Source: Jaapia argillacea MUCL 33604 (Eukaryota > Basidiomycota > Agaricomycetes > Jaapiales > Jaapiaceae). From it: a stretch of 64,000 nucleotides of DNA. Both the position numbers and the translations under genes were made by a program. The stretch lies in NCBI GenBank assembly GCA_000697665.1, contig KL197787.1, forward strand, positions 8,067 to 72,066, read 5' to 3'. Shown here piece after piece: positions 1,887 through 64,000 of this stretch (the stretch's first letter is position 1; each line of letters begins with the position of its first letter). The notes beneath the pieces were generated by a model. It was not told where the DNA came from, did no database searches, and saw only the letters and a program-made list of their open reading frames with translations.

Positions 1887-2881
1887 TTATGTTTGCTAGC
1901 CCACTGCTTAACGAAGGACGCTCTCAAGTAAGTTGCGTTGGCTGCTATTTGACGAACCACTCATAATTAACTTTCGTTGGCAATTAGGGGGACAGTACTC
2001 GCCCATGTGAGTGGGAAAGGGCCGCTGATCGCCCCACTCCCCCCTGATCGCCCCCCTGATCATCCCGCTCCTATGTCGCGCAGGCATATTCAAACAATGT
2101 TCAATCAGTATGGCGACCTGACACAGCCATTCGCCCAATTTATACTATTTTCATCCATCTTGCAATGGACCCGAGTTATATTATACGCTTGGACATACAT
2201 AGAATATCTCCATCCTGATATGCCAGTCGGCATTTTATCAATACGTGCTCGAGTTATATTCCCTGTAATAGTCAAACTCGGAAGAGTTGATATGCCCTTA
2301 TGCCAGAGCCAAATAATATATTATTCGATATAGTATGACTTTTGCCGTTTGAATAAGTCAGTCACCAATTGTCAATAAAGTGTTCAAACTCTGTCAGTGG
2401 CTATGCCGCCCGCCCGAGCTACGCCGATATTATTCACACGCCAATGCCTTGGTGAACAATATGGTGGGGTGGTTTATTTGTGTTGGTCTGCAGTGTTGAG
2501 CCTCCCATTACACATACCAGGACATTTTTTGGACTAAATTCGACGAAATTACCTGGATTATACCCTACATATTCACGTTTCGGCAGCAATTTTTACCGGG
2601 ATCACTATATCCGACCTTTCTATGACAGGCATTGTATGCCTCCGGGCGGTCCATTGCCACAAAATTTTCGTCCCTCCGGAGGTTTGACCTGGACAATTAT
2701 CCAACCTCTCGGCCAAAATAGATGATTTTGACCAGTTTTGACCGGGATTATACCCAACCTCCTCACATTTTGGGGGTAATTTTGACCAGGACTCTGATCT
2801 GACCCCTCCCTCTATTATCCAGGGTCCTGTAATATGTAGATGTACCAAGTATATTTACGATGCTCATTCTCAGCGAGCAAG
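1887..2881. other. Spacer with degenerate direct repeats
   Basis: No gene is seen in this 1 kb. It holds a pair of related segments of about 70 bases (about 2553-2625 and 2738-2812). Each begins with a GGATTATACCC motif, continues with a TCACnTTT block and ends near TGACC or CGACC. They look like a decayed duplicated repeat. The polypyrimidine stretch near 2035-2070 repeats a CTGATCGCCCC unit a few times. Confidence 0.4.
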
Positions 2882-4110
2882 TCAATCCCAAGGCAAAAGG
2901 CCTCTGTACACCCTCGTAGATTCGCCACTCCCAACTTTGTCAGGACACCAATCCAAAAGTCCCCCAATCTCAGGTGACGAAGTATAGTAAGAATGAAAGC
3001 GACTAAACGGGTTTCGGCCGCGTCGTTTGGACGAGAGCGGTGGGTGGCAGCCGTACAGGTCTGACATGTATGGAAGGAGCGCGTTTTGTCGCTAGTACCG
3101 ACATGTCGGTCAGTAAGGACGAAGGTTAGCGAAATAGAAGATCCTCACCTCTCCTTCTCTAGCAATTTCCCCATCTCCCTCCATATCAACACCGATATAC
3201 TCAAACTTGTCCTCCGGCCACCTCAGCGCCTTCCTATGCAACTCTACAAATCTTTTTCTCTTCATCTCGAACCCAACCACTGTGATATAAGTTGGATATC
3301 GCCCCACATACTCGTGGAATCGAGCGATTGAGAAAAGAAGGTTTTGGTAAGAGTCAAGGGCGTAGTTTTCTGTCGTTGCACGGTTGAAATGAAGTGGGAG
3401 GAGGGAGGCTGCGATGGCGAGTCGGAGGTAGGAATCCGCTTCGGTTGAAGGAGACGAAGGCCTGGTCTGCCCTCTGTAACAAAAAATGAGCTGAAATAGA
3501 ATACCTGAGCTGAAAAAACTTACCCGCTGAAAACGAGCAGTGAGTCTGCCTCATTCCGCGCATACTCGGCTCTGCGAATCAATGTCACATATTGCAACCA
3601 GAGTACGAACAGGGGAATACTGACATACCCTTGTCGTATATGCTCGAAGAATGCATTCACACTCTCGCCTCCTCGCTGAAAGGGTTCCAGCACCCATTCA
3701 TCATCTTCCATCCTCATAGAAGGATCCGACCCTTTCCAAATAGCATGTCCAGGAACCATGATCAAATGCGTCAGGTTACGAACGACAGGATCTCTTGCGA
3801 CAGTGTCCAATAATCTGGCCGGATGCCTTCGAGCATCATAAACTTCAAACGAGGGTGGACGCGCGAGGTAAAAGGAGAGGTTGATAAGTAACGAGAGGCA
3901 GCAAACTGAAGCTAAGATAAGGAAGCCAAGATTGGTGATACGAGCACGAGACAGCAAGAAGTCGATTTTTCGGAGAGGGGGATGTGTTGCATGGCGTCGA
4001 AAGCCGCCTTTGAACGTTGCTGGTAACGGAAGCATCGACGCTGGGGACGTGTCGCGTCCATCAGCCACCAAATACTTCGGGCCGAGGCTTCCGAGCAAGT
4101 ATTGTCGCAT
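2882..4110 (-). CDS. DUF218-family membrane-anchored protein
   Basis: Four exons (4110-3629, 3571-3524, 3473-3149, 3091-2882) join in phase to 354 aa. One hydrophobic segment near residues 50-70 (LGFLILASVCCLSLLINLSF) suggests a signal anchor. The DUF218 core follows: LIMVPGHAIWKG near residue 115, then a LLVFSGGQTR loop and EADSYL. The C-terminal block has DLYGCHPPL, KRRGRNPF, LLDWCP and a final GLLPW, as in fungal homologues such as the one in fission yeast. For the last intron, the acceptor at 3092 restores the conserved C-terminal frame, whereas the nearer CAG does not. DUF218 proteins are poorly characterised; bacterial relatives act in envelope metabolism. The gene lies just downstream of the NRK1-like gene on the same strand. 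Confidence 0.85.
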
Positions 4111-6225: not shown

Positions 6226-9200
6226 CTATCGAATTCCTCGCTGACGCTCACATTCGGAGCTCAGCGCCCGCAACACCGATGCGAGATCAGGTCTATCAGC
6301 CGAGCACTGGCTCCAGCAGCGCTTAGCAAGGTGCCATAGGGCATCCGAAAGTCCCCGGTTGGCACCTTCGTCGGGTCTTGGTGGGCGGCCGCCCTCCATG
6401 ACCACCTTCGGCACAGCTGGCTCCTCCAACCAGTCAAAGGGGAGTTTATCTGAATACACCTGCGAGTGTGCATCAGTGCTAGTATTGGAGGTCCAAGCTG
6501 AATACCGGAGCATACCTCATAAATCACCAAGCCGAATGCGTACACGTCACCGCTCCTCGTGGGCCCCTTTGGTGCAGTCGGGTCTGCTTGTCCAGGGTCA
6601 AATCGTTCTGGAGGCATCCACCTCCAAGACCCATTCCTTGCTGATGTTGTAGATAATGAATGAACTATGTCACTATCATATGCAGCGAGATTCGTGAGAC
6701 CAAAATCTGTCAGGAGAGCGTGACCTCGATCATCTATTAGGATGTTCGTCTGGGGAATGTAATAGTCAGCAATCCTGTACCAGTACCTTGCAGCGGAGGT
6801 TCGCTTACCCCCTTGAGATCACCATGAATAACATCAATACCATGTAGGTGATGAAGGCCAGCCATGACGTCGCGCAACTAGATGGAAGCTCAGCAAACCT
6901 CCGCGTATTGGAAGCTTCGAGATGCTCACAATGCAAACACGGCTCGCGGCAGGGTGATTCTCTAAATAGCCCAAGACATTCCCATTCTTCATCCACTCGC
7001 TAATCATGCAAAAAGAAGATTCAACATGATATGGTCGTAGCCCCTCGACAGCCGAAGTGACCGAAGCTCCAATGAATCTTGCAATGTTGGGTGGGGGGCC
7101 CTCCGACACACGTTTCCAAACAAAAATCTCGTCAAATAGACGCTAGGGGGTTGTCAAATTTACAATCTGCTGTATTTGTATGCACCGACCTTTCTGAATC
7201 GAACCACATCTAAATTTTGAGTCTTGGCAGTCAAAACTTTAATCGCAACTTGTCTGTTTTGATACTCCCCGAGAAAGATATCTGCGAAGGCGCCAGAAGC
7301 AACGGGATAGGGTTCCAAGACTTTCAATCCACCTGGAATCATGTAACTTCGGGGTAAACGATTGAATTCGATGCACAACTTCTTCAGTAGTCGGTGATTG
7401 TCTGTATGCATGCGGTCGCTCCCAGTGTCAATCTGAAGAAGGGATCAGAATCGATACAGGAGAGGAAACTTTGGACAGATGCGTACAGCGGCCTTCTCCT
7501 CTATCATGCGATCGGGACTCGAAAAGCTACGTTGCAGGGTTTCTGGAGCCAATCGTCTCTTCGGGGATGGAGGTCTGTCCGTTCCAGGAGGTGCTGTGGT
7601 CTCTGGGGTACACCCACTGGCAACGTCTTGTAAGACCTTCCTGATCGCGAAAACAGTTGGGCGCCTCCGACAACTCGCATCCCAGCACGAACGCATGATC
7701 CACCATATCTCGTCAGAAAGACCAGCGCTCACCGCACCGGAAGGTCGTGGCGGCATGATTCTTTGGGGGAAAACTGCAAGGGCATATTCGAGATCACTTG
7801 GATATTCCGCTGCGAAAGGAGCTACCCCCGTGAAAACCTTGAAAAGTCATGAAATGTTGAGGAATCTGGGGAAAATGAGTGCCAACCTCCAACATCAACA
7901 TGGCAAACGCATAGACATCACTCTTGAGAGAGGGTGCCGCGTCGGGCGAGGCGAGCTCTGGAGCCCTCCATCGGATGTACGTCATGTTCTGAAACGATCT
8001 CCGAAAGGGCTGGTCATGCACAAGACTCGTCCGAGTAAAATCATATAAACAAGCCTGGTGGCGGTCATTGATAAGAATATTCGCCTAGATTTCCTCATTA
8101 GTCGGACGGTGGGTTGAGGAAAGGCGACGCACAGCTCGTAGCTCCCTGTACAACAACCCCACCGAATGCAGATAATATAGCCCATTAGCACAGTCCAGGA
8201 GCTGCCAGCCATCATCAGACCAAAGTGACAAAGAAGGCAGGCAAGACGGCCCACCAGCTTGATCCGGCTATGGCTAGGATAGTCTTCCAAAAATTCTAAA
8301 ATGTTCCCTCGATCCATCCAGGTGGATATCAGGCATGGTACTTCCCGGTCAGGCGATAAGGTAAGTTGAGATACCCCTCGGAACGGAACGATGTTTTGAT
8401 GAGATAGGCGCTTCCAGGTCACAGCCTCTTGGAAGAACATCTAACGCAGAGGTGAGGGATGATAGCAGTATCCCATGTAGTTGAACGAACTTTGTTGATG
8501 CGATCAGTTTTATTCGAGTCGTAGGATCGCAAGATTTTGATAGCGACCGTCTCTCCACGGTATGTTCCCTTGAAGATGTCACAAATGCCCCCAAACGTGT
8601 AGGATTCGGTGGATTTTTCTGGCTCTCCTTCCAAACGGACACATTTTGGGAGCATGCTAGACATCCTACAGAGTTGTCGAAGGACACATAGACACTGACT
8701 GTAGTCGAAAGTGTCTGGCCATAGTTGGCCGAGAATCTGGGGCGGAGTGGTCAGTAAATCGGTGAGATCGTCGACGATAGATAAGCTGCACATGCATCAT
8801 CCAAATGGTCGAGAAACATTTGTAGCTCTTCCGATGAAAGTTCCCGAACCACATCCATAGACTTCTTCGTCGACAGGATCCAACACGTCAAATTCTTCAA
8901 CTCCTCTGCGAGGTCCGCTTGGGGATGCAGTCGCGTGGAGGCGTCCAGAGTCAGCGGCCACGGAGAGACATCACAGGCCTGTATCCAGATTATAAAATAC
9001 ATTCACCAGAGATGTGGATACACCTACCACTTCATACATATGTTGCGGCATATTCTCCTTTAGCCTACAAAGCTCTGCGTGAACGCTCTCCCGTTGGAGC
9101 AGTAGGTGAACGGAATCGGTGTTCGCCCATTGTCCCAGTTGTTCCCCAAGTTTGCCAAACCACCTGTCCGGAATGCAACCAATGAGGGCAGTCGACATGG

Positions 9201-9514
9201 AATAATCCTGAATCATACCGAAGAGATTGAACAACGCTTCCTCGATCGATCTTCAGATCGAGGAGTTCACGATCTAGCCTATGGGCATAGATATCGCAGA
9301 CTCTCAGAATTTCTCTTGCAAGACTCTGATTAGGTACAACAGACATCAGGATTCGGGGATAGTCTCAAAGCGTGTTGCTTGCCTTGAAAAGACATAGTTT
9401 GTCCACAGCATCTCGAATGCGTCGAAGACGGGGGAGGAATTCGGCCGTGAGTGGGAATTCTGCGTTCTGGAGCTGGCTATCATCGAGAGACAAGTCCACG
9501 AGATGTTGGTCCAT
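6226..9514 (-). CDS. Helical N-terminus + pseudokinase + kinase tandem (TKL type)
   Basis: Fourteen exons join in phase to 866 aa: 9514-9383, 9325-9219, 9163-9028, 8978-8796, 8736-8491, 8440-8255, 8201-8133, 8084-7887, 7837-7487, 7432-7190, 7142-6930, 6877-6809, 6749-6516, 6459-6226. Residues 1-186 are helical (LPRLRRIRDAVDKL, LLQRESVHAELCRLKENM), like the N-terminal bundles of agaricomycete TKL proteins and MLKL. The first kinase domain keeps the ATP Lys (VAIKIL, about K253), but HRD reads YRE (348-350) and DFG reads DFT (368-370), so it is probably catalytically dead. The second has VAIKVL (K601), HGDLK (D708) and TDFGL (D726) and looks active. A 54-nt GTACGC...TTCAG intron (7433-7486) joins them in phase 0. 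A stop follows if it is retained, so two genes remain possible. Two introns appear to use GC donors. Confidence 0.75.
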
Positions 9515-13832: not shown

Positions 13833-15018
13833 ATGAGGGGTGGACTAAATCTCAGCCAACTTGGACAATCCTTCGAGGTCTCAGCCTACGACCTGGCGGT
13901 TGAACAGAGAGGTCAACTATGGTAGGTAGATTTCATCTCGACATGGTACGCTGGAGAAGTTGACCTACTTTAGGGGTTTGTTATCGTTCCAGATTAATGG
14001 GTTTATACAAGGAAGAATACCAAGGTCAAGCAGGACACCCTTCCCCATATTTGCCTTCAAGACGGCGACAAATCAGAGACTCGTTGCCGTAAGTTCAAGT
14101 TGTCTGTGAATCACTGTATCAGTTTGGGTTGCATTGAGATTGTGATGGACTTCTTTCGCTCTACTTTTAAGGCGCTTTAGCCAAGTGGTTACGGCGACAG
14201 ATTAGAATTCAATACATCTGTTTCCCTTTGGGAGCATAGGTTCGAGTCCTGTAGGCGTCGGATTGGTTTTGCACCTCATTTCTTTGCCCCACTCACCTAC
14301 ATTTTCGTACTCTGCAGGGCTCCCCGATGTTCGTGACCACAATTCCGATTTATCAAGCCTTAGGTATATCTCGGTTCTTGTTCATTTCCATGTCCTATTT
14401 GAATGAGAAATTTGATACAGGTGGTATGTATTGGACTGTCCATTCCATCGATCTCACCCCCCTCCGTGGTGAGCAAGTCCAACCTGCGCTGCACTTAAAT
14501 CGCGGTACCTCCTCGCGCATGATTGAAGTGGGACTCCAACTTCCCTCGCATTTGTCTCAGGCACTTCATCGTCGCCTTTGGTACGTCTTCGGTTGATAAT
14601 TGGGTATCGACAAAGCCAAAAATCCCGCTCGCTCGTTATCTCGTCGGAAGATCGCGAGGGAAATCTAACTGACGGTAACATGTTGGTCATCCTCGGTCAT
14701 CTCTCCACAGTAAGCAGCCTGTCCATCCATTCGTTTTTCGCACTGACTCATGTCCGACTTCCCAAGTTTTGACCTACCCGCGGCCAGATACCCCTCTCGT
14801 CAACCCCTCGCGACCGTCCGTTTGCCCAGACGACGGCCGAGTCTGCAAGAGTGTCACAATCAAAATTTGAGATCACGCGAACTGATGGTTTGCAGAGTGT
14901 TCAGACGGATGAGGTAGGGAAAATTCAGTCCGAGAGGACTCGTGGCGAACGACAAGATCCTTCCGCTGCTCAATCATCTAACCGGGTTGATCCAGACCCG
15001 AAGAACAAGTTCTGTTGA
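13833..15018 (+). CDS. Unknown protein; an intron appears to host a tRNA gene
   Basis: An ATG at 13833 starts MRGGLNLSQLGQSFEVSAYD. Exons 13833-13921, 13974-14088, 14318-14363 and 14421-14580 join in phase. An exon ending at 14709 and a last exon 14788-15018 (ends DPDPKNKFC, TGA) also agree in phase with each other. The start of the exon ending at 14709 is unresolved; the nearest acceptor would leave an intron of only about 35 nt. The intron 14089-14317 has GTAAGT and TCTGCAG ends and contains the whole tRNA-Ser gene on the same strand. The protein, about 230 aa, has no recognised domain; a loosely hydrophobic stretch (PMFVTTIPIYQALGG) and a polar tail rich in Gln, Ser and Arg are visible. 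Two genes flanking the tRNA are the alternative. Confidence 0.5.
14171..14260 (+). tRNA. tRNA-Ser(AGA), class II, with short intron
   Basis: A full cloverleaf folds. The acceptor stem is GGCGCTT with AGGCGTC, the D arm GCC...GGC, and the anticodon stem ACAGA/TCTGT. The loop reads TTAGAA plus an inserted TTCAATAC before the last loop base, which I read as an 8-nt intron after position 37. The long variable arm (CCC TTT GGG) and the T arm ATAGG-TTCGAGT-CCTGT mark a serine tRNA. A T-run follows (GATTGGTTTT), a Pol III stop. The anticodon AGA reads UCU and UCC after inosine modification. It lies inside a predicted intron of the surrounding gene. Confidence 0.88.
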
Positions 15019-26331: not shown

Positions 26332-26404
26332 TAGCAGCGACTCGTCTCGATCGAGTGACCTTGGGGTTATGAGCCCCACGCGCTTCCGACTGCGCCACGC
26401 TGCT
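26332..26404 (-). tRNA. Initiator tRNA-Met (CAT)
   Basis: The cloverleaf folds on the minus strand. The acceptor is AGCAGCG/CGCTGCT with an A1:U72 pair, the D arm is GCGC...GCGC, and the anticodon stem TGGGG/CCCCA carries the three G:C pairs of initiators, with loop CTCATAA. The T loop reads ATCGAGA, with A instead of T at position 54, a eukaryotic initiator mark. It lies 160 bases past the ATG5 stop. Confidence 0.93.
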
Positions 26405-41979: not shown

Positions 41980-43590
41980 TTAAGGATCACGTCCCCGTGA
42001 TCCAGATTGGCGAAGTTGCCAACGAAGATAAGCATTATCATAAACCAACCCAAAGGGGTCGGAGTCCGTCTCAAAATAGTCAGACCAACTGTCGGTCCAA
42101 TCTATGCGTCGAATCTGTTGTCCTCCTGGGATAAGAATGGTGGGCATGTGAGGTGCGGTGGGATTGAGTTGATGGAATTTATCAATCAAATCCTTGCAAA
42201 CTTTGATCATTGTCCACCTGGCTTCCCAGGTGTTGTCAGATCGCGGTTTTCCCTTCCATTTGATTAAATATCATAGTCCGCCACGGACTACTTTCGAGTC
42301 TAATACTTCCTCAGGCACAGCAAGAGGATCTACGAGGATCGTGGGAATTTGAAGTACCGGCGTCTGTGTCGGAAATTCCGGGGCCGAGTAGGGTAATAAT
42401 AAAGCTTCATTGAAGACAGGGTGGATTCCTTTCCACGAAGTCGGTAACTTTAGCTTATATGCGCTATTTCCAATGCGTTTAACGATCTCAAAGGGACCAT
42501 AGCGTCTATTGTCTAACTTCTTGCTAGGTCGATCCGTTCTAATGTTAATCCCCTCTAGGAGGACTTTGTCGCCAATATTATAGTCTACAGCACTTTTACG
42601 ACCCTTGTCATATTGACGCTTCATGATCTCTTGAGAAAGTAACAACGCAGTTGTTGCTTCCTCTTGGATTTTCTTCATGCGTTCCGAAAATTGGATTGCA
42701 CTCTCGCTTTTCAATTCCTTCCTAGTTTCGACGCCAGTATAGGCTTCAAAACCATGAGTCATAAAGAATGGGGAAAATCCCGTCGAGGAATGTTTCCTAT
42801 TACGATAAGTGAATTCAGCCATTGGTAACCAATCGGACCAGTCTGATTGTCGGTGATTTATGAAGATCTGTAGATAGGTCTGGATCTCACGATTCATCCG
42901 TTCCGTTTGACCATCAGTTTGAGGATGGTAAGCAGTACTTGGATTTCCGGTTATACCAAGAGCTTTATAGATATCTTTAATGAATTGAGACACAAATTGC
43001 GGTCCACAATCGGAAGTAATCCGATGAGACAATCCATGTTTGGCCCAAACATTTCGAATATATAAATTAGCCCATCCTTCTGAGTTCAACTCATCAACGG
43101 TGGGAATAGCGATATAATCTTTTGATTTCATGTCAACAATCACTAGGATTGCAGTATGACCCAGAGAGTCGGGAAGATGTGTCATCATGTCAACTGAGAC
43201 ATATTCCCAATTACGACTAGGAACTGGATTCGGGTGTAAAGGCGCTGCCTTCTTTTGTTGGTTGTACTTGACTCTTTGACAAGTCTCACAACCTTTTACG
43301 TATTTTTTAACATCCTTGCGTATGGATGGCCACCAATAAGAGCAATAGATAAGCTCTTGGGTTTTCTCTTGACTGGGATGTCCAACACTAATGGAATCGT
43401 GATGAGATTGAATCACTTTTCCACGAAGTGTTTGATCATTTGGAACAACCAATCGTTCTTTTCTCCAGATGAAACCCTGTTCGTCTTGATGATAATCACC
43501 ATTACCGTCCTCTACGGCTTTGATGACTGATTCGTCGTATAGATTAAGTTTTTCTTCAATCTCAGATCGAAGTTTATCTGTTCCTTCCAC
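41980..43590 (-). pseudogene. Integrase and chromodomain-like tail of the LTR element
   Basis: The integrase part has the zinc-binding HH-CC block (CETCQRVKYNQ) and a DDE core region (TSDCGPQFVSQF). A chromodomain-like segment (IKWKGKPRSDNTWEARW) lies downstream before the purine tract, which places it with the chromoviruses. Confidence 0.8.
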
Positions 43591-43599
43591 TGTAATCGC

Positions 43600-45846
43600 T
43601 CAGAACCATTCTGGTTTTAACAATGTAAGATCTTCATTGTCATTCATGGTTCCTTGATGATCTGGTCGACGAGATAATGGGTCGGCTTTGATCATTGTTT
43701 TTCCAGGTTTATGGATCAGGTCAAAGTCGTATTGCATTAACTTTGCTGACCATCTTGCCTGTTGCGGACTTAGGTGTTGGGGTTTTCGATAATAGATAAG
43801 GTTCTTATGATCGGTATGAATTTCAAACTTTTGTTGTGCACCCAACAAGAAGTGACGCCACTCATCTAGAGTGGTGATCATAGTGAGCATTTCTCTATCA
43901 TAAATTTCATAATTACGTTTGGCAGGGGACAGGCTTTTGGACAAATATGCAATGGGTTTCCACACACCATTTTGTTTCTGTGCAAGTTCTGCGCCTAACG
44001 CAAACATTGAAGCATCACATTCTACTTTGAATTGATCGGTGTCGTTTGGAACGGCAAGGATCGGTGCTGATGTCATAGCACTTTTCAGAGCAGAGAAGGC
44101 TTCATTTTGTTCTGATCCCCAGGACCATTCAGCAAGACCAGTGAGTTTAGTCATAGGCGAAGCAATTTTTGAGAAGTCTTTTATGAATTTTCGATAAAAA
44201 TTGGCAAAACCTAAGAATTGCTGGATATCTTGTTTGCATTTCGGGGTTGGCCAGCCCGAAACACCTTCTACTTTAGATGGATCCATGCGGACAAATCCAT
44301 CTCCGATAATGTGACCCAAATATTCAACCTCCCCCTTCTCAAACTGGCACTTCTCCGGTTTGCAGGTGAGGTGGTTATCACGTAGCAATTGCAGTACTTG
44401 TGCTGTGATTTCCCGTTGCTCCTTCAAGGAGGAGGTGAAAATTAGAATATCGTCTAAATATACAACAACCTTTCCTTTTAGGATAAGGTCTCGGAAGACG
44501 TCATTCATCATTGTTTGAAAGGTTGAAGGACTATTAGTCAACCCAAAAAACATAACCAAGGGTTCGAACAGACCCCTGTTGGTGATGAAAGCGGCCTTTT
44601 CTTCGTCTCCGTCTTTCATGCGAATATTATTATAACCCCACCGAACATCAAGTTTGGTGAAGTATTTTGCACCACGAAGACGATCAAGTAGTTCTGCAAT
44701 TAATGGCAGGGGATACTTGTTCTTCTTTGTGAGATCATTTAATTTTCGGTAGTCTTGGACCAGTCGGAGATTACCTTCTTTTTTTTTGACGAAAAAGAAG
44801 GGTGCTCCCCAAGGAGATTTTGATGGACGAATGCGCTTCATTTTCAAATTCTCCTCCAAGAACTTATCAAGTTCCTTTTGCTCATCAAGAGTCATGGAAT
44901 AGACTTTTCCAGCATAAGGTTTAGCACCTTCCACGAGTTCGATCGTGTGATCGTACAGTCGTCGATCGGGGAGGGTGTCAAATGTCTTTGATTCGAAGAC
45001 ATCACGAAAAGAGTGATAATGATGAGGAACAAGTTCCTCAAAAGAACCAATCTTTTTATGCTTATTTTTCTCTATTGCGATATCCATCGCATTGGTGGCG
45101 CGTAGATAGTGGGATGGGATCGAGGGGGGGCGTGAAGCCATCCATCGTCTTACATCCAACATATACAACTTGTCATCATCATCTATCTCTATTCTGTGGA
45201 GATGGATACAGGAATCGGGACAACGCCGGAATTCAATTAAGCGTTGTTTCCAATGAATTATTGGGTCATGGTGTTCAATCCATTCATAACCAAGGAAAAG
45301 ATCTGCTTTTCCAAGGTCGGTGACTAGAAACATACATGTCTCTTTATGATCACCAACCGTCATAGATAATCGGATATAATCGGTAATAAAACCTCCAGCG
45401 TTAACTGAGCCATTGGCATTGTAGACTTCTATGGGTTCATCAAACTTCATGGTGTCCAGACCATGTCGTACAATAAAATCTCTATTAACACATGATCCCG
45501 TACTGCCAGAATCAATAAGTGCTATCGTGTCTATAGATAGGGTGGTTGCAGGATTGGTAATCGTGACAGGCAAGTCCATTTGCATGCCTCGATTTAGTCC
45601 TTTAACGACTTTAAATAATTTAGGTCCTTCGGTTGTGATACTCCGAAGTTCCTTCGCAACCTTCACACTAGGTTGTTTTTTGTTGTCTTCATCGACGACT
45701 TCTTCGATAGAAACTTTTCTATTTTTCTTCGCTACTACTGGTACATGTGGAGTCATAGGGGAATTAAGCACGGATGACGTTCCACCGCGCTTCTTTTCAG
45801 AAGACGCCCCTGACGATGATGGAATACATGGTGGTACAAAGGACAT
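43600..45846 (-). pseudogene. Protease-RT-RNase H region of the LTR element
   Basis: A 748-codon open frame holds an aspartic protease (ALIDSGSTGS), reverse transcriptase (YLDDILIF, with LRLVQDYRKLND before it) and RNase H (FEIHTDHKNLIYY). Domain order and motifs are those of Ty3/Gypsy. Confidence 0.9.
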
Positions 45847-45950
45847 AGATCGTTCTTGGATATCTATGCTATCCGGTAATGAGTCTTCGATATGTAGTAC
45901 AGAGAAACGATTTGGGGATGAAAATACAGAGGGCAGGGGATCTGGTGCAA

Positions 45951-47423
45951 TCAGACCATGCCGGAGACAAAACCCGCTGCTTTTGCAGTTTCTGGATCCT
46001 TCTTGATCCAGGCTCTCATTTTCTCAATAAAGTCGGAGGGGGATTCTTTCTCCACGACTTCTTCAATTGAGGCTGTCTTGGTCTCAGTCCACCAGATCTG
46101 CTGTTGATCCTTTGGTTGGTTGGGGATGTGCCAAGGGCTCCTGCAAGTACCCTTCTTGCTTTGTTTGGCCTTGCACTTCACACAAGGTCGATCGGTTATG
46201 CTCCGATCTACATCCATGGGCTGTCCGCGCCCAGTGAAGGTTTGTCCCTTCGAACCGCTTGTTGTCGCAGAGGTCACCTGCGTTGTCCCCATCTGTGGGG
46301 CCTTCTTCTGCTGATACGATCCTGATGTATACAGCTTTGTCTCTTCCTCGTGTTGCCGACAATTTTCATCGATCGCAACTAGTCACTTCTTCCACGTGTC
46401 ATAGGATGTCGGAATGACATCACTATTGGTAATAATCGACCTGATTATCGATTGGTCCGAGTTCAGTTTGATAAGGGCGATCAATTCCCTTTCATCTTTT
46501 GTGAGGCTTAGGTTCGCACGCTTCACCAGAAGCTCGAATTCCTGGAACCACTCTACCATGCGCTGCTTAGAGTCTTTCTTTAGACTCTTTAGCTTTGCAT
46601 ATGATCTATCTTGGATGGCAGGATCCAAGAAGAATTGATCCAACATTTGGGTGAAGAATTGTATGTCGGAATATCGGTTTTTGGGTGGGAGGCCTTCAAT
46701 TTGATTCATATGGTACTGCTGTGCCCATACTGCAGCAGTTCCAGTTTTCATATACGATAACGTATATAGAATTCTTGATTTGGCAGAAGTATATCGTTTT
46801 TCGTCTGATAAGAAGACGATCTGACATTGTCATACAAAATCCTCAAATTTTTCTTTGTTTCCGTCAAAGTCGTCTGGCTTTGCGACGGAAACTGGTTTTT
46901 CTCCCCCTTGTTGTAGACTATTGAAGGCATTTGTCATGGCTGCCATCATTTGGTCCATTGGGTTAACAGCTATCGGGGGTGTTGGTAAAGGTCGGTGATG
47001 TGGTGACGTGTGTCGAGATGCATATAGAGAGTGTGGGGATGGTATAGTCGGTATTGCTGTTGGTGGAGTTCGTCCAGGAACATATTGACGTGGCGGTGCT
47101 AATCGTGGGTAACTTGTGCGGTACTCTTGATGGAGTGTAGCAGGTGATGGAGGTGGCTGATTTCCTAGCCAACTTTGTTGTAGGTGTGGAGTATTTGGCG
47201 TCGGGTTGTAGCATAAAAAATGCTGAGGGTTTCGAACATCCGTGATGGGATATGTTGGTAGTGGTGGTGGAATGGTGATGTGAGGAAGAAGGTATGGTGC
47301 GAACGGTGGTACAACTGGCTGTGGTGCAACTGGCTGTGGTGCAACTGGCTGTGGTGCAACTCCCACCATTGGTACAATGACCGGTGTGAATCCTGGCGTG
47401 GAGTGTTGTGACATTTTTGACAA
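45951..47423 (-). pseudogene. gag region of the LTR element
   Basis: Minus-strand frames encode a Pro/Thr-rich N-terminus and a retrotransposon gag-like core (motifs WFQEFELLVKRANLSL and DRSYAKLKSLKKDS). It is part of the fossil element and reads in more than one frame. Confidence 0.75.
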
Positions 47424-52502: not shown

Positions 52503-54466
52503 TCAGAGAAGTTGCTTCCAACCGGCCTCGCGGCATCTCTTGACCAAACGTTTCACTTCTTGAGACCGGGCTCGAGTAGTGACGAGCAACGTATCTGGCA
52601 TGTCAACGATAACAAGATCGTCGACTCCAAGACACGCAACCAGCCTTCCAGATCCAGGGACAACGATCCCACCAGCAACTTGCTCCGTGAGCACTGCATG
52701 CCAGATTGAGTAGAGTTAGACGAAGAATAGAATTTAAACTCACCGAGAGCGTGATCTCCTAATACACGTGTTTGATTGGCTTCCGCGGGCAACAACTCCG
52801 CAAGGGAAGAGAAATCGCCGACATCGTCCCAACCTGGCAACGAAAGGTGAGAAGAAAGTACACTTAGGATATGCTCATGACTCACCGAATGTGGCAGGTA
52901 CTACAGCCACTCGGCCCTCTACAGCAGCGGGCTCAGCGACGGCGTTATCGATGGCGATTTTCTCTAACCCAGGCCACACTTCGCTCAACACACGCTGCCT
53001 GGCCACCTCGTCTTCCCAAACGTCTGCGATCTTCGTCAACCCATCGTACAGCTCAGTCTTGTACTCCTTCAACAATTGCATCAAGAACGTCGCCTTGGTG
53101 ACGAACATACCGGCATTCCACCGGTAACTACCAGTAGCGATGTACGCAGCAGCGGTGCGAGCATCAGGCTTCTCTTTGAAGCTCGAGACGAGTCTGGCGT
53201 TGGGCGCCTCCTTGATATTCAGCTTCTCCCCAAGACGAACATATCCGAAGCCAGTCGATGGGTGAGAGGGCGCGATTCCGATTGTGACCAGATAGTCCTT
53301 CTTGGCCACTTCCACAGCCTCCGAGACGGCTGACAAGAAGGCATCGTCACCAGAAATCATATGATCTGCTGCGAAGGACCCGATGACGGCCTCAGGGTCC
53401 CGTTTGGCGAGAACGGCCGCTGCAAGGCCGATGGCTGCCATGGAATCCTTGGCGCTGGGCTCGGTAAAAAGGTTGTGAGTGTAGAGCTCTGGAAGCTGCT
53501 CGCGGATGCTTTTGACGTGTGCAGGTCCAGCGACGATGGTAGTACGACTCGCGGAAGAAAGAGGGAGAAGACGGTCCCAGGTTGCCTGGATCAAAGAGCG
53601 GCCCTTGAGGGTCAAATCCAAGAGGAATTTGGGGTGGTCTTCACGGGAGAGAGGCCAGAGTCGAGTTCCAGCACCTCCAGCTGGAATGACGACGTAAAAG
53701 CCAGGGATTTCGCGGATTCCAAACGGAAAGGCGGTGAGCGAATGGTCACCCAAAGGAGAAGGAACGTGTATGGACGGGGGCACAGCTAGTGCAGGGATGC
53801 TGCTGGGAGTAAGGAAAGGTGACTTGGCTCGAAGTTGCGGGCTTCCTGGAGCAGGTGTTGTGAACCCAGGTGTATGGAAGCCACTGGAGCGGAATGGGGA
53901 ACCATTGTGACCGTTCTGTGTGAAGTATGTTAACGAAAGAAGAGGTCCAGACTACCAGATAATGACAAGAGTCAACAAGATGTCCCAATTCTCCAGTAAT
54001 CCAACCATTGCAATACAATGTACAAGAGGATGTCCGATGTCCGCTCATCCTTCATCTCTGAACAAGCAGGTAACTGTTCGACGACGAACACACACACACA
54101 CTAATTTCGATGTGGTCCTTGCCAAGACGAGGAGCGACGGTATAAGCCGTACACTCCTGGCACAAAACATATAAGAATGAACGAGACAAGGGAAGAGAAA
54201 GCACCTGTAAACCTTCTCTGACTTGACGCTCGAGACAAGCATTGGAATGCCTCAGGTCTGCGCATTCCTGTCGCAAGTCTGCAATTTCGACATGCTACAG
54301 ACGGGCGATTGTCAATCACCGCTGCCGTTACCGCCAACGACAGAAGACTTACCGATCTTTGGACGGCCTCCATGATTTGCTGGAACATGGCTTCGACTCC
54401 GAGGCCAGTTGGAGGCTGAGGGGCCTGCATGGCGGGCTTTGTGTTGAGAGAGAGGGTGTTTGGCAT
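52503..54466 (-). CDS. ManC-type mannose-1-phosphate guanylyltransferase with coiled-coil N-terminus
   Basis: It makes GDP-mannose from mannose-1-phosphate and GTP. Exons 54466-54353, 54294-54205, 53915-52886, 52833-52744 and 52693-52503 join in phase to 504 aa, if no extra exon lies in the 289-nt intron. The N-terminus has a helical stretch (QQIMEAVQRS, then EIADLRQECADLRHSN) and a Ser/Pro linker. The catalytic part is of the bacterial ManC kind: VVIPAGGAGTRLWPLSREDH, PKFLLDL, GSFAADHMI, GFGYVRLGEKL, SFKEKPDARTAAAYI and RWNAGMFV. A C-terminal cupin-like hexapeptide segment (VGDFSSL...VDLVIVDMPDTLLV-like) is short. The usual fungal Psa1 has GGFGTRLRPLT instead. The GTG at 53783 is internal, not the start. 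Confidence 0.82.
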
Positions 54467-56308: not shown

Positions 56309-58607
56309 CTATCCAGATCCTTTCTTCCTCAATTCGAGGAAGAAAGCAGTCACTTCTGACATTGGCGGTCGAAGGGTTGGCGTGGAGTTCCAACACATTT
56401 CTAGCATATTCCAGAACGCCTCTGCCGCAATATCCCGGATGAGACAATGAGCTCCTCTAGCAGGCTTGACCCCTCGCATAATATCAAAAATGATTGCGTG
56501 ATCCTTCGTCCGGTTAGGATACGGTACTTGGTCAGTCGCAATCTGTCCAACCAACAGAGTTAGTCATGCCGTTCACGAAGATATACAAACAGAAACATGC
56601 TTCAAGACAAACCGACCCGAACGCGTAAACGTCGCTGTGTGTTGTGATGGGAGGCGGAACGTCCTCATCTTCGATGAGTGCAAGGACGATCTCAGGTGCC
56701 ATCCACCGCGTTGAACCTCCAAAGAACGAGGTGGCGATATGATGCGACTCGCAGAAGTCTTCCATCACCTTTGACAGGCCAAAATCAGTGATGAGAGCTT
56801 TACCATCGTTATCGATCAGGATGTTGCACTATCTTGGCGTTAATAATGAACCCGTGAATGATGATCGAAACACATACGCCTTTCAAATCTCCGTGGACTA
56901 CAATGGGCTTGAAGCTGTGGAGATATTGGACCCCGGACGCTATTTCGACGACCTATTCATCTTTCGAATGAGACACGAAAGGCAGATGTCGATCCGCTTA
57001 CCAGCTTCATTCGATCGGCATCCGGGCAAACATCTTTCAAGTAGTCGATTACCGTCCCATTGTTACACCATGGAGATACCATGGCGATAGTGTTGGACTT
57101 CTGGACGACCCCATAAAACTGAAGGATATTTGGGTGTCGGAGCCGGTGCCACGCCAAAATCTCGTCTTTGAGTCGCTGGTTTTCAAGGTGAGAATTAGTC
57201 ACAGAAGAATGATTTTGAAAGAGACCCAATCATACTGTCAGGAGCTTCTCTTTAATTCCTTTGACCATGATCTGACGGAGTACTTTCAGAGCCACCTTGA
57301 AGTTATTGAAGTATCGTCAGGCAACACCCTCCAGAAAGATATCACTGTCGCGTACTGGCCGAGTCTGATGTCGGACACGATCGATCCATTCTCCCTTCCA
57401 TATATCCGCAAATGAACCAAACGCGAATGGTGAATCGCCGTCATATACAATGTCATCAGTGAGATCAGTGACCTTTATGGACTCCCGAACGATGAGGGTC
57501 TTCTTGAGGCTCTCTTGGATCATCTTGGTTCGACATTGCGTCTTAAACAGATTGCAGTCCCAGCTTCTAGCCGCCGAGTGGTCGCTTCCCAGGAGTGACG
57601 CGGCCTCGATTGCAGATCGTAGGGATGAGAAGTAAACACGGCGAGGGGAAGATTCCAGGATGGCAGCATTTCGGAGATGCACATCCAAGCGGGATTCGAT
57701 ATCGCAGTCGACAAGGGAGGACCTGGGTTTCAGGACGTTGTCTTGATCCTCCTCAGCATTTGTCAGCAGGTAGAGAGTTACAGTGGATTTGAGAGGGAAG
57801 AATAGATGGCAAATGCCCTGGCTGCGATGTGTGGGTCAAATTAAGCGCCGATCAAGGTAAAATACTCACGAATTGTGATCGAGTTCCTCGCCCAGTACGC
57901 CCAAGCCCTTATCAGGTAGTAGATACTGATGTCCATCGGAAGACTTTCCGAAGCAAATTTCTGCGTGGTACAAAGACCAGCAACTGTCGTATACGTCTTG
58001 GTACAATCCTTCTTTCATCGGCACATATCCAGGCTTGTGACGTAGAAACGCCTCGAAGCTTCCAAGAATCGCGCGGCGTCGGACACGCTGGAAGGGGCGA
58101 TATTCCACCCAGTGACCCGACCAAGCTCTCGTCTTTTGCCCCAACTTGTGGAAAGTTTCAGCGTATTTGTCGCTGTTACGGTACCGGAGAAAGATGAAGT
58201 ACTTGCGCAAGCTGTGCAGATCATCGTCCGAAATCGGCAGTCTCGTCCTAGTTTCGACCCCTCCCACGACGCTTATCAACTGATCTAGGATGCCCTCAAC
58301 TTCCTGCTCGAGACTCCAGAATGCGTCCTCTGCCCGGGAGAGGGCGCTGCGGCAATGATGGTCGAGCACTCCGTTATCGTAGATATGGAAGATCCCACGT
58401 TTGCGCTGAGGGATTCGGCGAGCTTCTGCGAGCACTCCTTGACTGGTGTCGTAGATGTGAAGTCGACAATTATCCAGCGTGTCCTGACTGGAAAAACGCC
58501 GTCAGTTAACATAGGAAGTGTCTTTCGTGTGGGACTTACGGATCCGATAACCAGAACCTCAATATGAACTCAGGGAGATGGGGAGAGATGTCCAAAGTTT
58601 CCATCAT
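56309..58607 (-). CDS. DUF4238-kinase fusion protein (TKL type)
   Basis: Eight exons (58607-58540, 58487-57870, 57821-57377, 57295-57236, 57175-57002, 56952-56878, 56828-56601, 56542-56309) join in phase to 633 aa. Residues 1-about 320 look like DUF4238: HLPEFILRFWLSDP at the start, LHSLRKYFIFLRYRNSDKYA, YQDVYDSCWSLYHAEICFGK, and ICHLFFPLKSTVTLYLLTN near its end. The kinase follows in the same exon: FAFGSFADIWKGEW, VALKVL (K381), HGDLKG (D477), ITDFGLSK (D495), GSTRWMAPEIV and HSDVYAFGSVCLE. All catalytic residues are present. The shared exon 57821-57377 encodes both the DUF4238 tail and the kinase glycine loop, so the fusion does not rest on a guessed intron. The intron after CLE uses a GC donor. 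The substrate is unknown. Confidence 0.8.
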
Positions 58608-60026: not shown

Positions 60027-60735
60027 GTGAAGGGATTCTTCTCAATGCTTTGGCAGTGCAATCTGCTTAGGCTGCTATTTCTCTTATATGATCCATGTTG
60101 CCCACTTTGAATCTATTTGCCCATCTCCATCCTTGGCTGTTGTGGTACATGTTAAGATTGTTACTTCAACGAAGTATATGATGAAAGACTTTGATACTTC
60201 TCTGATGGTATCTAGGCTACAGCCCCAGAAGTAACATGATGAGAGGATGGGGATCTATCAGAGGTTTCCAGATGATTGATCAGACAGTGATCAAGTTGAG
60301 ATGATGCAAATAAAGATAACATCAGGAAAAAAGGTTTGGAGTGCTTCTCGCTCCAGACCACTTCTATAGTTAGATTGTTCTAAATTACCTGAATTATGAA
60401 CTTCTGAGGCACCTAGAGCATTCCAGACTTTCCAGACCTGTAGCAACCAAACTCTAGAGGCGTCTAGAATCCTCATTTCCAAGGAATCTTTCTAGCTAAT
60501 GCTATAATAGTCACTGGTGGCATGCCAATTCTTTGGTGTGAAGTTCTAGTAGCTTTAGATTGAAGCAAGTAGCTCCATAGTGTTCATAGTTCCTAGGCGT
60601 AACAATAGGTCCATTACAAGTTGAAAGTCAAGTAATACACATGATCTCAAGGAACATTTGATGAGATTAGATATTGACATCTGTATCATCAACAAGTGCA
60701 AGGGCTAGCTATTACAGTGTACAAACACTATTCAA
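60027..60735. other. AT-rich spacer
   Basis: No gene is seen. CCAGA/TCTAGA-type words recur (for example CCAGACTTTCCAGACC near 60421-60439), without a clear unit. Confidence 0.35.
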
Positions 60736-61035
60736 ATAAGGGAGAAGGAAAGAGGGAGGGAGGGCGAAGGAAATGAGAAGGGAGAAGTGAGGTGGAGGGG
60801 AGAAGAGAGATGGATGAAAGAGAAGAGAAAGAGAGAAGGTTGAGAGGAAGAGAGTTGGAGACAGAAAGAGAAGGAAGAAGGAAAAGAAAGGAGAAAGAAG
60901 AGGAATGGAGAAGAAATGGGAGAAGGCAGGAGGGGGAAGGGAAAAGGAAGGGAGAATGGAGAGGAAGGAAGAAGAAAGAGGAAAGGGGAAGGGAGGAGGG
61001 AAGGGAGAAGGAGAAGGGAGGAGAGAAGGGGGAGG
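60736..61035. repeat. Purine-rich low-complexity tract
   Basis: About 300 bases almost wholly of G and A on the plus strand, built on irregular GGGAGAAGGA units. It runs into the assembly gap and resumes on the other side. Open frames read through it are artefacts of composition. Confidence 0.85.
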
Positions 61036-61664
61036 NNNNNNNNNNNNNNNNNNNNNNNNNNNNNNNNNNNNNNNNNNNNNNNNNNNNNNNNNNNNNNNNN
61101 NNNNNNNNNNNNNNNNNNNNNNNNNNNNNNNNNNNNNNNNNNNNNNNNNNNNNNNNNNNNNNNNNNNNNNNNNNNNNNNNNNNNNNNNNNNNNNNNNNNN
61201 NNNNNNNNNNNNNNNNNNNNNNNNNNNNNNNNNNNNNNNNNNNNNNNNNNNNNNNNNNNNNNNNNNNNNNNNNNNNNNNNNNNNNNNNNNNNNNNNNNNN
61301 NNNNNNNNNNNNNNNNNNNNNNNNNNNNNNNNNNNNNNNNNNNNNNNNNNNNNNNNNNNNNNNNNNNNNNNNNNNNNNNNNNNNNNNNNNNNNNNNNNNN
61401 NNNNNNNNNNNNNNNNNNNNNNNNNNNNNNNNNNNNNNNNNNNNNNNNNNNNNNNNNNNNNNNNNNNNNNNNNNNNNNNNNNNNNNNNNNNNNNNNNNNN
61501 NNNNNNNNNNNNNNNNNNNNNNNNNNNNNNNNNNNNNNNNNNNNNNNNNNNNNNNNNNNNNNNNNNNNNNNNNNNNNNNNNNNNNNNNNNNNNNNNNNNN
61601 NNNNNNNNNNNNNNNNNNNNNNNNNNNNNNNNNNNNNNNNNNNNNNNNNNNNNNNNNNNNNNNN
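61036..61664. other. Assembly gap (629 N)
   Basis: Unknown bases. Both flanks are purine-rich repeats, so the gap probably reflects a repeat that could not be assembled. Confidence 0.98.
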
Positions 61665-61694
61665 GGGAGAGGAAGGGAGAAGGGAGAAGGGGGG
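61665..61694. repeat. Purine-rich tract, right flank of gap
   Basis: The same GGGAGAAGG-type units as on the left side, about 30 bases, ending before a non-repetitive segment. Confidence 0.75.
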
Positions 61695-64000
61695 GTTGAA
61701 GATCAGAGTTGAAGAGGTAGTAACAGTGAAAATGGGCAAATGAAGGTAAAGGAGCAGTGTGACTCATGGGGCAAGGGGGGCAATCAACAGAGGGGATCCA
61801 GTGCATCAAAATGATCCAAGATTTAAGGGAATACGAACCACAGATCCTGAGATACCTCCAAGTCTCTCCCAAAACACAAAAACATCGATATCTCCACCAA
61901 TTCCCAACCAAATCCCAAGACCCAGGTATCGTTACGAGCGGACAGAGGAGGCGATTACGATGGCGTTGAACGTTTTTGAAGTGCTGGCGAAGTGCGTGAA
62001 ACATCGGGCAAAAACTTCGAAAAGATGGAGGGGACTGACCTAAGTTGAATCAAAGGCCCTGGTGCTTATCAGAGCTACGAGGCACAGTTCAGAGGAGTTG
62101 TATTGTTCCAGTAAATGCAGCAAGCAGATAAGAGGTAGCCCTGGTAGATAGCCTGAGTGTTCATGGTGTTGTTGACAGTAAGGATTGGGATGAGTGTGGC
62201 AAGCCTGAGTGCAAAGACGAGACACGAAGTCTGGAAAGTCCACGGTCCGTGGTTCCTTGCCGCTACTGAATCAGTAGCGGCACGGAAACAAGGCCCGCGC
62301 TTTCCAAATGCACGCAACATTTGTAAAGTCTGACTTCCCAGTGTTGACATGCGTCCACTTGTTCACTCTGTAGGGCTCTTTCTCACTTGACAGAAGACAC
62401 TAGGCTCTCTCGCCCTCATGCTCTGTTCTCCATTCTTGCTCGCTTGCTCTCTCATTTGGGTGCTCGCCCTCATTTTCATTCACTCTTGTTCGCTCCCCAT
62501 TGTGCATGCCAACACTTGACATTTCCAGCATCTGGGCTGGTGCTTCTGTGTTGTGGATTGCTAGAATCAACCCTTGGTAAGTAATGTCCTTCCTCCTGCT
62601 ACTGTCTAAGCTCAATTTCATCCTGCGGCAACACTCTTTGACAAGCAAACTGACTGTGCTCGCCAACAAACACCCACAGCAAAGACTACACATGGCACCC
62701 TCCAATAACAGCAACCACATCCCTGAACAACGACAACAACGGCGCTGTCACTGTGTGTTGACTCGACAACTCAACAATTGTCATGTGTTCTGGTGAACAC
62801 TTAGAATTGTGGGGTCATAGTCGCAGAGGTCTTATCAGGGTGAGTCTCTCTTTCTCGTAACTACTCCTCAAACCTGAGCTCCTTGCTGACACTGTTGCAG
62901 GCCTGTTTTCTACTGTATCAAGTACCCTCCTTCCCGTTTCCATTTCCTCTCAGCACACAAGCTCCACACAACATCGTCGTCAACCCTCGTCCCTCTCAAC
63001 TCCCTCACCAGTGACTTCTCATCACCGACACTCCTTTGCACTGATGTTCCTTTGTGTTGAGCTTCGTGCTGCACTGGACGTTCACTTTCTGGAGGGACAC
63101 ACATACTCTTTGGGTTTTGAGGGATCTTTACAGAGTCCTCTGGAAGTTGCTGTGAATGTAGATCGCTGGGGGCCCATGGATTTGTCAAGTCTACTCTTGG
63201 TAAGCAATATCCTCCTCCTGCCGGCTCTCATTGATGAGCAGTTTGTCTTGCAGGATTTGCGTTCAATATATGAAGGTATTGGAGGGCTGGAAGGGTGTAA
63301 GAATGAGGTTACAGCCTTATAGTAAGTTCAAAGCATCCTTTCTGGATGTATTTTCGGCTTATTCACTTTCTCTGCTCTTTAGATCTTTCTATCTGCCCAA
63401 CAACTCCAAGCCCACCTCCATCAACAACTCTGGCATGAACACATGCTGCACTCCTACCCCTATCTGCAAACTCTTTTGCATTCTGCTATTTAGTTCTCCT
63501 GTAGTAGCCTTTGTTTAACGAACTATCTTTGTAAAGTAATAGCTAGATACATTTGATTCAAATACATTTTTGAAGCTTCTATACCTGTCTATGCTGGCTA
63601 TAAGAGAAAAAATCGGCACCTACTGCTATAGAACAACTGCCAGAAATATCTTTACTATAGAAGTCTTCTAAGATTCCAGGGCAGCTATAAGATTTTCTTC
63701 TCAGATAATGGCACTATTATAGCATTTTTTAAGGGGGACCCTTGGTATAACAACTTTAAGTTCTATTACATCTAGATACGAGTGTCTAGGCACTCTGAGT
63801 TCCAAATTGACAAAGTGAACAAGATGGGGAATACTAGCAAATACAGGGAAGTATTTATACTAAGGTGAAGCACAGTCCGTAGTCCATAGTCCAGATGAAA
63901 AAGACAGTAGTAAGAATGGGTAGAAGTGAGTCAGAAAGATAGGAGTCTGTAGTTAGGGGTTAGGGGTCCATAGTCCGTAGTCCACAGTCGATGGTCTGGA
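61695..64000. other. Gene-poor terminal 2.3 kb
   Basis: No gene could be supported. At 62390-62510 short CTCGCCCTCATT / TTGCTCGCTTGCTCTC units recur imperfectly. 63520-63850 is AT-rich. Some open stretches (for example 63011-63322 on +) have no splice or family support. Confidence 0.35.
63860..64000. repeat. Short AGTCC-type tandem words at the window end
   Basis: CAGTCCGTAGTCCATAGTCC near 63870 and GTCCATAGTCCGTAGTCCAC near 63967 are variants of a 9-10-base unit. A short TTAGGGGTTAGGGG lies between them. The repeat may continue beyond the window. Confidence 0.55.

Follow-up and report, generated by a model that had tools for sequence, protein, structure and literature searches.

Gene model of the tandem kinase

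The stretch of DNA analysed here (the window, 64,000 nt of contig KL197787.1 of the wood-inhabiting fungus Jaapia argillacea MUCL 33604) carries on its minus strand a tandem kinase gene of 14 exons, with the ATG at 9514 and the stop codon at 6226-6228. The product of 866 amino acids (aa) comprises an N-terminal domain (NTD, residues 1–125), a pre-kinase module (~126–225), a first kinase domain (K1, ~226–500), a linker, and a second kinase domain (K2, ~551–866), of which K1 is a predicted pseudokinase by loss of the HRD Asp and the DFG Gly, and K2 is predicted to be catalytically active. Coordinates, strand and length had been given in an earlier reading made without database searches (the sequence-only reading), and were confirmed by the open frame and by identity with the public protein from residue 45. 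Features of the gene, with the evidence for them, were the following.

6226..9514, minus strand: whole coding span, open frame over 866 codons, exon matches in its own genome
9514–9383, 9325–9219, 9163–9028, 8978–8796, 8736–8491, minus strand: exons 1-5 of the final splice model
8440–8255, 8201–8133, 8084–7887, 7837–7487, 7432–7190, minus strand: exons 6-10 of the final splice model
7142–6930, 6877–6809, 6749–6516, 6459–6226, minus strand: exons 11-14 of the final splice model
9383..9514, minus strand: exon 1, residues 1-44, with a matching first exon in the paralogue C25, and GC-AG intron 9382-9326 next
9028..9514, minus strand: NTD, predicted helical, residues 1-125, exons 1-3 (similarity to the C25 NTD; helices in the AlphaFold2, AF2, model)
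8620..8978, minus strand: pre-kinase helical module, residues ~126-225, ending in LRQLC.....LP, GC-AG intron 8795-8737 inside
7595..8619, minus strand: K1, predicted pseudokinase, residues ~226-500 (Pfam PF07714; motif table; profile hidden Markov model, HMM, score)
8536..8538, minus strand: ATP-site Lys253 of K1 (VAIK), kept
8142..8150, minus strand: YRE replacing HRD in K1, residues 348-350
8034..8042, minus strand: DFT replacing DFG in K1, residues 368-370
7433..7486, minus strand: linker intron joining K1 to K2, 54 nt, phase 0, GT/AG
6229..7390, minus strand: K2, predicted active, residues ~551-866 (Pfam PF00069/PF07714; all catalytic residues)
6818..6826, minus strand: HGD catalytic loop of K2, residues 706-708
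6699..6707, minus strand: DFG of K2, residues 726-728

The 13 introns are 47-59 nt long, 11 with GT–AG and two with GC–AG borders (9382–9326, 8795–8737). The public protein JAAARDRAFT_644376 (P0001, 829 aa) equals the model from residue 45 to the end (822/822 residues), covers both kinases with the linker intron spliced out, and starts at the ATG at 9345, exon 1 being missing from the public model. This exon is supported by two paralogues in the same genome, i.e. C25, which has a similar first exon, and C73a, in which an intron with a GT donor follows ...LFK at the equivalent place.

Protein and Pfam searches were conducted with a trial model of 858 aa, the kinase exons of which are the same as in the final model. 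P0001 was matched with 96% identity over 95%, and the two Pfam kinase families gave E-values of 2.8e-66 and 9.9e-54 (two stretches each, repeated on P0001), which excludes chance; no domains besides kinase families were among the Pfam matches of the trial model and P0001. The trial splice model itself, with a weak intron 9301–9241 and a 77-nt intron 8791–8715, was replaced by the public-model junctions 9218–9164 and 8795–8737, upon which a suspected frameshift in the NTD disappeared.

That K1 and K2 are encoded in one fused gene is confirmed at the level of gene models. The intron which the sequence-only reading had placed in phase between the kinases has a CTGAT branch-like site ~12 nt ahead of its acceptor, in addition to the borders listed above. 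A split into two adjacent genes, with a stop at 7447-7445 closing the first, would be extremely improbable: retention of the 54 nt does lead the frame into that stop, as foreseen for a position near 7445, and K2 has an in-frame ATG at 7411, but just 33 nt would separate stop and ATG, the splice signals are acceptable and in phase 0, P0001 joins the kinases, and the paralogue models are likewise fused, with a linker intron in C25 and C73c.

Catalytic residues of K1 and K2

K1 retains Lys253, the alpha-C Glu, the catalytic-loop Asn and the Asp of DFT, and is changed at three places, from HRD to YRE, from the catalytic-loop Lys to Arg, and from DFG to DFT. K2 has the complete set (Lys, Glu, HGD, Lys, Asn, DFG). 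The motif table is in line with the sequence-only reading, in which K1 had been given YRE and DFT with its ATP-site Lys kept, and K2 all catalytic residues; the loop motif of the latter reads HGD. This variant of HRD is usual in the kinase family (29/37 single-kinase rows, picked as fungal by source name); 24 of the 37 combine HGD with DFG, and one (P0165, with HGN) is without the catalytic Asp.

When scored with a profile built from 47 other kinases, which included P0165 and excluded both window kinases and 13 tandem pseudokinases, K1 reached 234.5 bits and K2 248.4 bits. With a score so close to that of K2, K1 is not visibly decayed, and it contains no frameshift or stop. The two kinases are 34.3% identical (93/271), and all four K1 introns lie at the alignment columns of K2 introns, all in phase 0, which together fit duplication of a multi-exon kinase.

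Some kinases without canonical residues are active, and K1 might work as an atypical kinase with Glu for the catalytic Asp, making the protein a dual kinase like its paralogues. The Lys, Glu, Asn and metal-binding Asp that are kept would speak for this, but YRE, Arg for the loop Lys, and DFT occur together in K1, as opposed to HGD..K..N and DFG in the first kinases of C25, C73a and C73c, and continued activity is considered very unlikely.

N-terminal domain and pre-kinase module

The helical N-terminus of the sequence-only reading is helical by prediction, with low confidence (38-55 in predicted local distance difference test, pLDDT, for the NTD in AF2), and it splits into two parts, the NTD and the pre-kinase module. 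The NTD aligned with that of C25 (Smith-Waterman z 10.9, 0/500 shuffles), and both have an intron ahead of an RW[FY] motif. An NTD-like exon with a weak HMM match (7.3 bits) lies upstream of C73a, ~0.7 kb from its first kinase match, and none was found by HMM search upstream of C73c. A separate NTD-like piece (L059 844-978, plus strand, equal to L040 9344-9478) adjoins the C73 tandem kinases and has no kinase match behind it in the stretch.

The NTD as a known domain was rejected, as nothing stood above cut-off in Pfam or, by sequence, in PDB: no match of the window NTD was listed up to E 10 in either, and the NTD pair, like the Rhizoctonia and Calocera N-termini, gave nothing above cut-off when queried by sequence against PDB. 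Residues 1–235 of P0001, searched over 1,808 candidates, returned only the protein itself at E up to 10, in a word-based search that can miss distant kin. With the N-termini of P0122, P0123 and P0129 no significant alignment was obtained (z 0.7, 1.5 and 2.1), and in six frames of the genome the window NTD and the C25 NTD were each found only in their own gene. The structure search was limited to the two kinases because neither model was confident in the NTD, and the structural match of these kinases corresponds to the general fold of tyrosine kinases (TK) and tyrosine kinase-like kinases (TKL).

The pre-kinase module aligned with each module ahead of the three kinases in Thelephora P0002 (z 8.5, 13.1 and 12.6) and with that of the single-kinase protein P0134 (z 6.3), but hardly with that of C25 (z 2.4). 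The LLxxLCxxxxxLP motif, described in the sequence-only reading as preceding each kinase, does so, but is a trait of the kinase family: a looser form of the pattern stands before 15/53 fungal kinase units (1/53 after shuffling) and before 0/125 other units (plants, bacteria, animals, and unnamed metagenome rows). Since the module is found before other TKL kinases, it is a family trait and not part of an MLKL bundle.

The likeness to an MLKL-type helical bundle, which the same reading had suggested, found no support for this NTD in the sequence searches, and this bears on a necroptosis-like module, in which K2 would act in the manner of RIPK3 and phosphorylate K1, freeing the NTD as a membrane-permeabilising MLKL or HeLo/HELL bundle. 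The order NTD-pseudokinase-kinase would suit such a module, and the N-terminus of Rhizoctonia solani P0123 has MLKL_N as its sole Pfam match, below cut-off (E 0.045, 13.7 bits vs 27). Fungal HELL domains joined to kinase or pseudokinase domains have been noted (PMC12881547), and MLKL-like N-termini are common in basidiomycete NLRs (PMC9815663), those of fungal NLRs being treated also in PMC10197012. The window NTD, on the other hand, is without a Pfam or PDB match as described, its helices are of low confidence, and its first exon is by eye highly charged rather than hydrophobic. MLKL_N gave no match at E up to 1 in the six frames of the genome, a weak point as the search proceeded exon by exon and split domains would escape it. 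Taken together, a necroptosis-like function is regarded as quite unlikely.

Tandem paralogues in the Jaapia genome

In the Jaapia assembly (43.7 Mb), which has at least 163 TKL exon matches, 20 further loci were screened by kinase profile. Close tandem kinase pairs were found in three of them, which hold C25 and, on contig C73, C73a, C73b and C73c; the other 17 were taken as single kinases from the spacing of matches, without gene models. In C25, C73a and C73c both kinases are complete (HGD..K..N and DFG in the first kinase) and joined by a linker, and C25 follows the same plan as the window gene. C73a is the public protein P0121, from which our model differs in the linker. C73b (L040 ~6860-8576, plus strand) was rejected as an intact tandem gene, its first kinase being only a C-lobe remnant before an intact K2.

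Two other kinase loci in the genome may be recorded here. A single Jaapia TKL-like gene (L051 1832-2544, plus strand) has HGN for HRD and SDV for DFG and is a predicted pseudokinase, and a partial second kinase (L045 1738-2088, minus strand) lies right behind a complete one (2209-3278).

Tandem kinases in other Agaricomycotina

In the profile search, 7,990 candidates were scored and 733 proteins were obtained at E ≤ 1e-10; the best 120 of these included tandem proteins of other Agaricomycotina. Motifs were scored in 244 sequences (240 proteins from the protein and profile searches, and four Jaapia models), each gene being counted once and at least two kinases with readable HRD and DFG positions being required. 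The sequence-only reading had proposed that the same architecture be sought in other Agaricomycetes, and the order of a dead kinase before a live one recurs in Agaricomycotina: among the matches listed, 17 distinct Agaricomycotina tandem proteins were assigned by motif scoring as follows.

Dead then live (12): P0001 Jaapia; P0122 Calocera; P0123 Rhizoctonia; P0125–P0128, P0131, P0132 and P0133 Mycenaceae; P0129 Rickenella; P0144 Tephrocybe
Live then dead (1): P0130 Mycena
Live only (4): C25, C73a, C73c, P0002
Left out, motifs unreadable: P0124, P0140, P0166, P0183, P0184, P0196, P0208
Also left out of the 17: P0138, P0147, P0174

The orders represented are Jaapiales, Agaricales, Cantharellales, Hymenochaetales and Dacrymycetales, as looked up for Jaapia (an Agaricomycete of the Jaapiales), Rickenella, Calocera, Rhizoctonia, Roridomyces and Tephrocybe. 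The Calocera, Rhizoctonia and Rickenella rows are single public gene models. That of Rhizoctonia (P0123) contains in addition a third kinase, which by eye is MAPK-like, and could be a fusion made in annotation.

The 12 dead-first proteins are not independent, because six Mycenaceae proteins (P0125–P0128, P0132, P0133) share the loss in their first kinase, with HGN and either GYG or GHG, and these first kinases form one clade. The presence of the same dead first kinase in six proteins suggests in turn that such a domain can be retained. Counted by motif groups, dead-first stands to dead-second at about 7 to 1 (two-sided sign test by hand, 0.07), and the excess of dead-first proteins, resting on few lineages, is weak.

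Three of the Mycena tandem proteins (P0125, P0127, P0132) have extra domains in their public models (zinc finger and homeobox, RhoGEF and others, Zn2-Cys6), due to either real shuffling or fused gene models.

Tandem pseudokinase–kinase TKLs of mushroom fungi were absent from the matches listed in the open-access literature, most subscription papers and bioRxiv being outside that scope. As far as these searches show, the dead-then-live tandem is not described in fungi outside Gcn2, although its kind is known elsewhere. We put forward tentatively, at somewhat less than even confidence, that the Agaricomycotina hold an undescribed and repeatedly evolved class of tandem TKLs, whose first kinase becomes inactive while the second remains functional, some with a helical N-terminus; the class would be a counterpart of JAKs and plant tandem kinases, plausibly serving non-self or stress signalling.

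Phylogeny of the dead kinases

Two quick trees were built with SH-aLRT values only; neither of them contained P0144, and P0165 counted as live in each in spite of the missing catalytic Asp. On the 63-domain tree the dead state, present in 12 rows, takes no fewer than 7 changes, and one clade of all 12 was rejected (p-AU 0.0014). In the 59-domain tree, which drops the long dead rows P0123_K1 and P0129_K1 and the short rows P0173_S and P0154_S, at least 4 changes are needed, and a single origin of the window K1 and the six Mycenaceae first kinases was not clearly rejected (p-AU 0.078). By the test on the 63-domain tree the dead kinases are not a single clade, but the number of losses is uncertain; an independent origin of each dead kinase is too strong a claim when the minimum is 7 or 4 depending on the tree. 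Different residues at the two motifs may favour separate losses.

Both window kinases group on sequence with Agaricomycete TKL-type kinases. A single clade of the Jaapia first kinases was not rejected (p 0.443). Kinship with JAKs is not supported, and those paralogues in which both kinases are complete speak for a local history.

Proposed mechanism

We hold with moderate confidence that the window gene belongs to a small group of tandem TKLs in Jaapia, shaped by duplication and by catalytic loss in K1, in which K1 would regulate K2 in cis. The proposal starts from the fused frame and the paralogous genes, and from K1 itself, with its lost residues and a profile that is still kinase-like. A multi-exon kinase was most likely duplicated to give K1 and K2, after which K1 of the window copy would have lost the catalytic base and the DFG glycine with its fold and nucleotide-binding residues kept. 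K1 would then most likely control K2 allosterically in cis, by analogy with Gcn2 and JAKs, and the NTD with the pre-kinase module could supply oligomerisation or partner binding which triggers or relieves the switch. We infer the actual inactivity of K1, its contact with and control of K2, and the role of the NTD. The part in stress or cell-death signalling suggested in the sequence-only reading would be one conceivable function.

Several observations weigh against this proposal. In the AF2 model (predicted template modelling score, pTM, 0.45) the K1-K2 interface is without reliability; no orthologue of the window gene was found; and in a weakly supported tree the window K1 is nearer to K2 of the paralogues C25 and C73 than to their K1. 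The eroded first kinase of C73b suggests that K1 can be dispensable among Jaapia tandem kinases. In addition, some dead first kinases of other fungi are far more decayed, with profile scores of 134.7 (P0129), 131.1 (P0123) and 98.0 bits (P0144, truncated), next to 262.0 bits for P0131.

The last two points would also be expected if K1 were an inactivated duplicate on its way out, without a regulatory job, and K2 alone mattered; such a reading also gains from the complete first kinases of C25, C73a and C73c, by which the loss is local to the window copy among those seen. On the other side stand the undisrupted frame of the window K1, its remaining core residues and its K2-like score, as well as the dead first kinase with the same motifs maintained in six Mycenaceae proteins. 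A decaying K1 is accordingly rated as unlikely, and cis regulation of K2 by K1 is retained as the preferred explanation.

If these readings are right, tandems of a dead and a live kinase have had more than one origin within a single fungal subphylum, separate from Gcn2, JAKs and the tandem kinases of plants. They would form a testable natural experiment on the question why catalysis tends to be lost from the N-terminal copy, and whether a switch results from this loss. As the live–live C25 and the dead–live window gene have the same NTD in one genome, the effect of catalytic loss is directly comparable between them. A function for these proteins would also show what purpose part of the large TKL expansion of the Agaricomycetes serves.

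Other features of the window

Elsewhere in the window the following features were observed.

14171-14260, plus strand: tRNA-Ser (AGA)
26332-26404, minus strand: tRNA-Met (CAT)
42271-46023, minus strand: retrotransposon pol open reading frames (ORFs) in an AT-rich stretch, with Pfam matches to protease, reverse transcriptase and RNase H, and an integrase-like part by eye
52875-53951, minus strand: nucleotidyl transferase ORF (PF00483)
56348-57508, minus strand: another TKL kinase, a single one, which has HGD and DFG (matches in exon pieces)
~60700-62000: simple-sequence DNA containing a long run of N

Comparison with known systems

A likeness in kinase sequence, HGD motif and pre-kinase module exists to the Agaricomycete TKL and TKL-ccin kinases and the FslK lineage. 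The Agaricomycete kinase expansion has been described, with FslK members called likely active (PMC3937382), and many TKLs are present in Laccaria (PMC2838846). The window gene is a tandem fusion with predicted loss of catalysis in K1, and neither feature was found by term search in PMC3937382.

With MLKL and the HeLo, HELL and BaMLKL proteins, the window protein shares a helical N-terminus, here a predicted one, before a pseudokinase. It differs in that the pseudokinase is not last but followed by a complete live kinase, K2, and in that its NTD has no detectable sequence match; MLKL itself is phosphorylated by a separate protein, RIPK3 (PMC12881547).

The layout of animal JAKs, with which the sequence-only reading had compared the gene, is shared in the order of pseudokinase (JH2) and kinase (JH1), a dead domain before a live one. 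In JAKs, JH2 regulates the kinase. Beyond the layout, kinship is not supported: the window kinases group with Agaricomycete TKLs, and no FERM or SH2 was among the Pfam matches of the window protein.

In plant tandem kinase-pseudokinases (WTK1/Yr15 and others), one of the tandem domains is likewise without catalysis. Plant tandem kinases belong to different kinase subfamilies and include immune kinases. Tandem kinase-pseudokinases were reported in 92 putative plant proteins, and convergence with JAKs has been suggested (PMC6170490).

Gcn2 also has a pseudokinase directly N-terminal to an active kinase within one fungal protein. In this eIF2alpha kinase the domain order is RWD, pseudokinase, kinase, HisRS-like and C-terminal domain (PMC12394161), and in yeast the pseudokinase contacts and directly stimulates the adjoining kinase (PMC4014428). 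The window protein, in contrast, is without an RWD or HisRS-like Pfam match, and its kinases, for which PF07714 is the best or nearly the best match, resemble TKLs of Agaricomycetes. Gcn2 and the plant tandem kinase–pseudokinases, both absent from the sequence-only reading, are precedents equal to JAK for a dead kinase joined to a live one.

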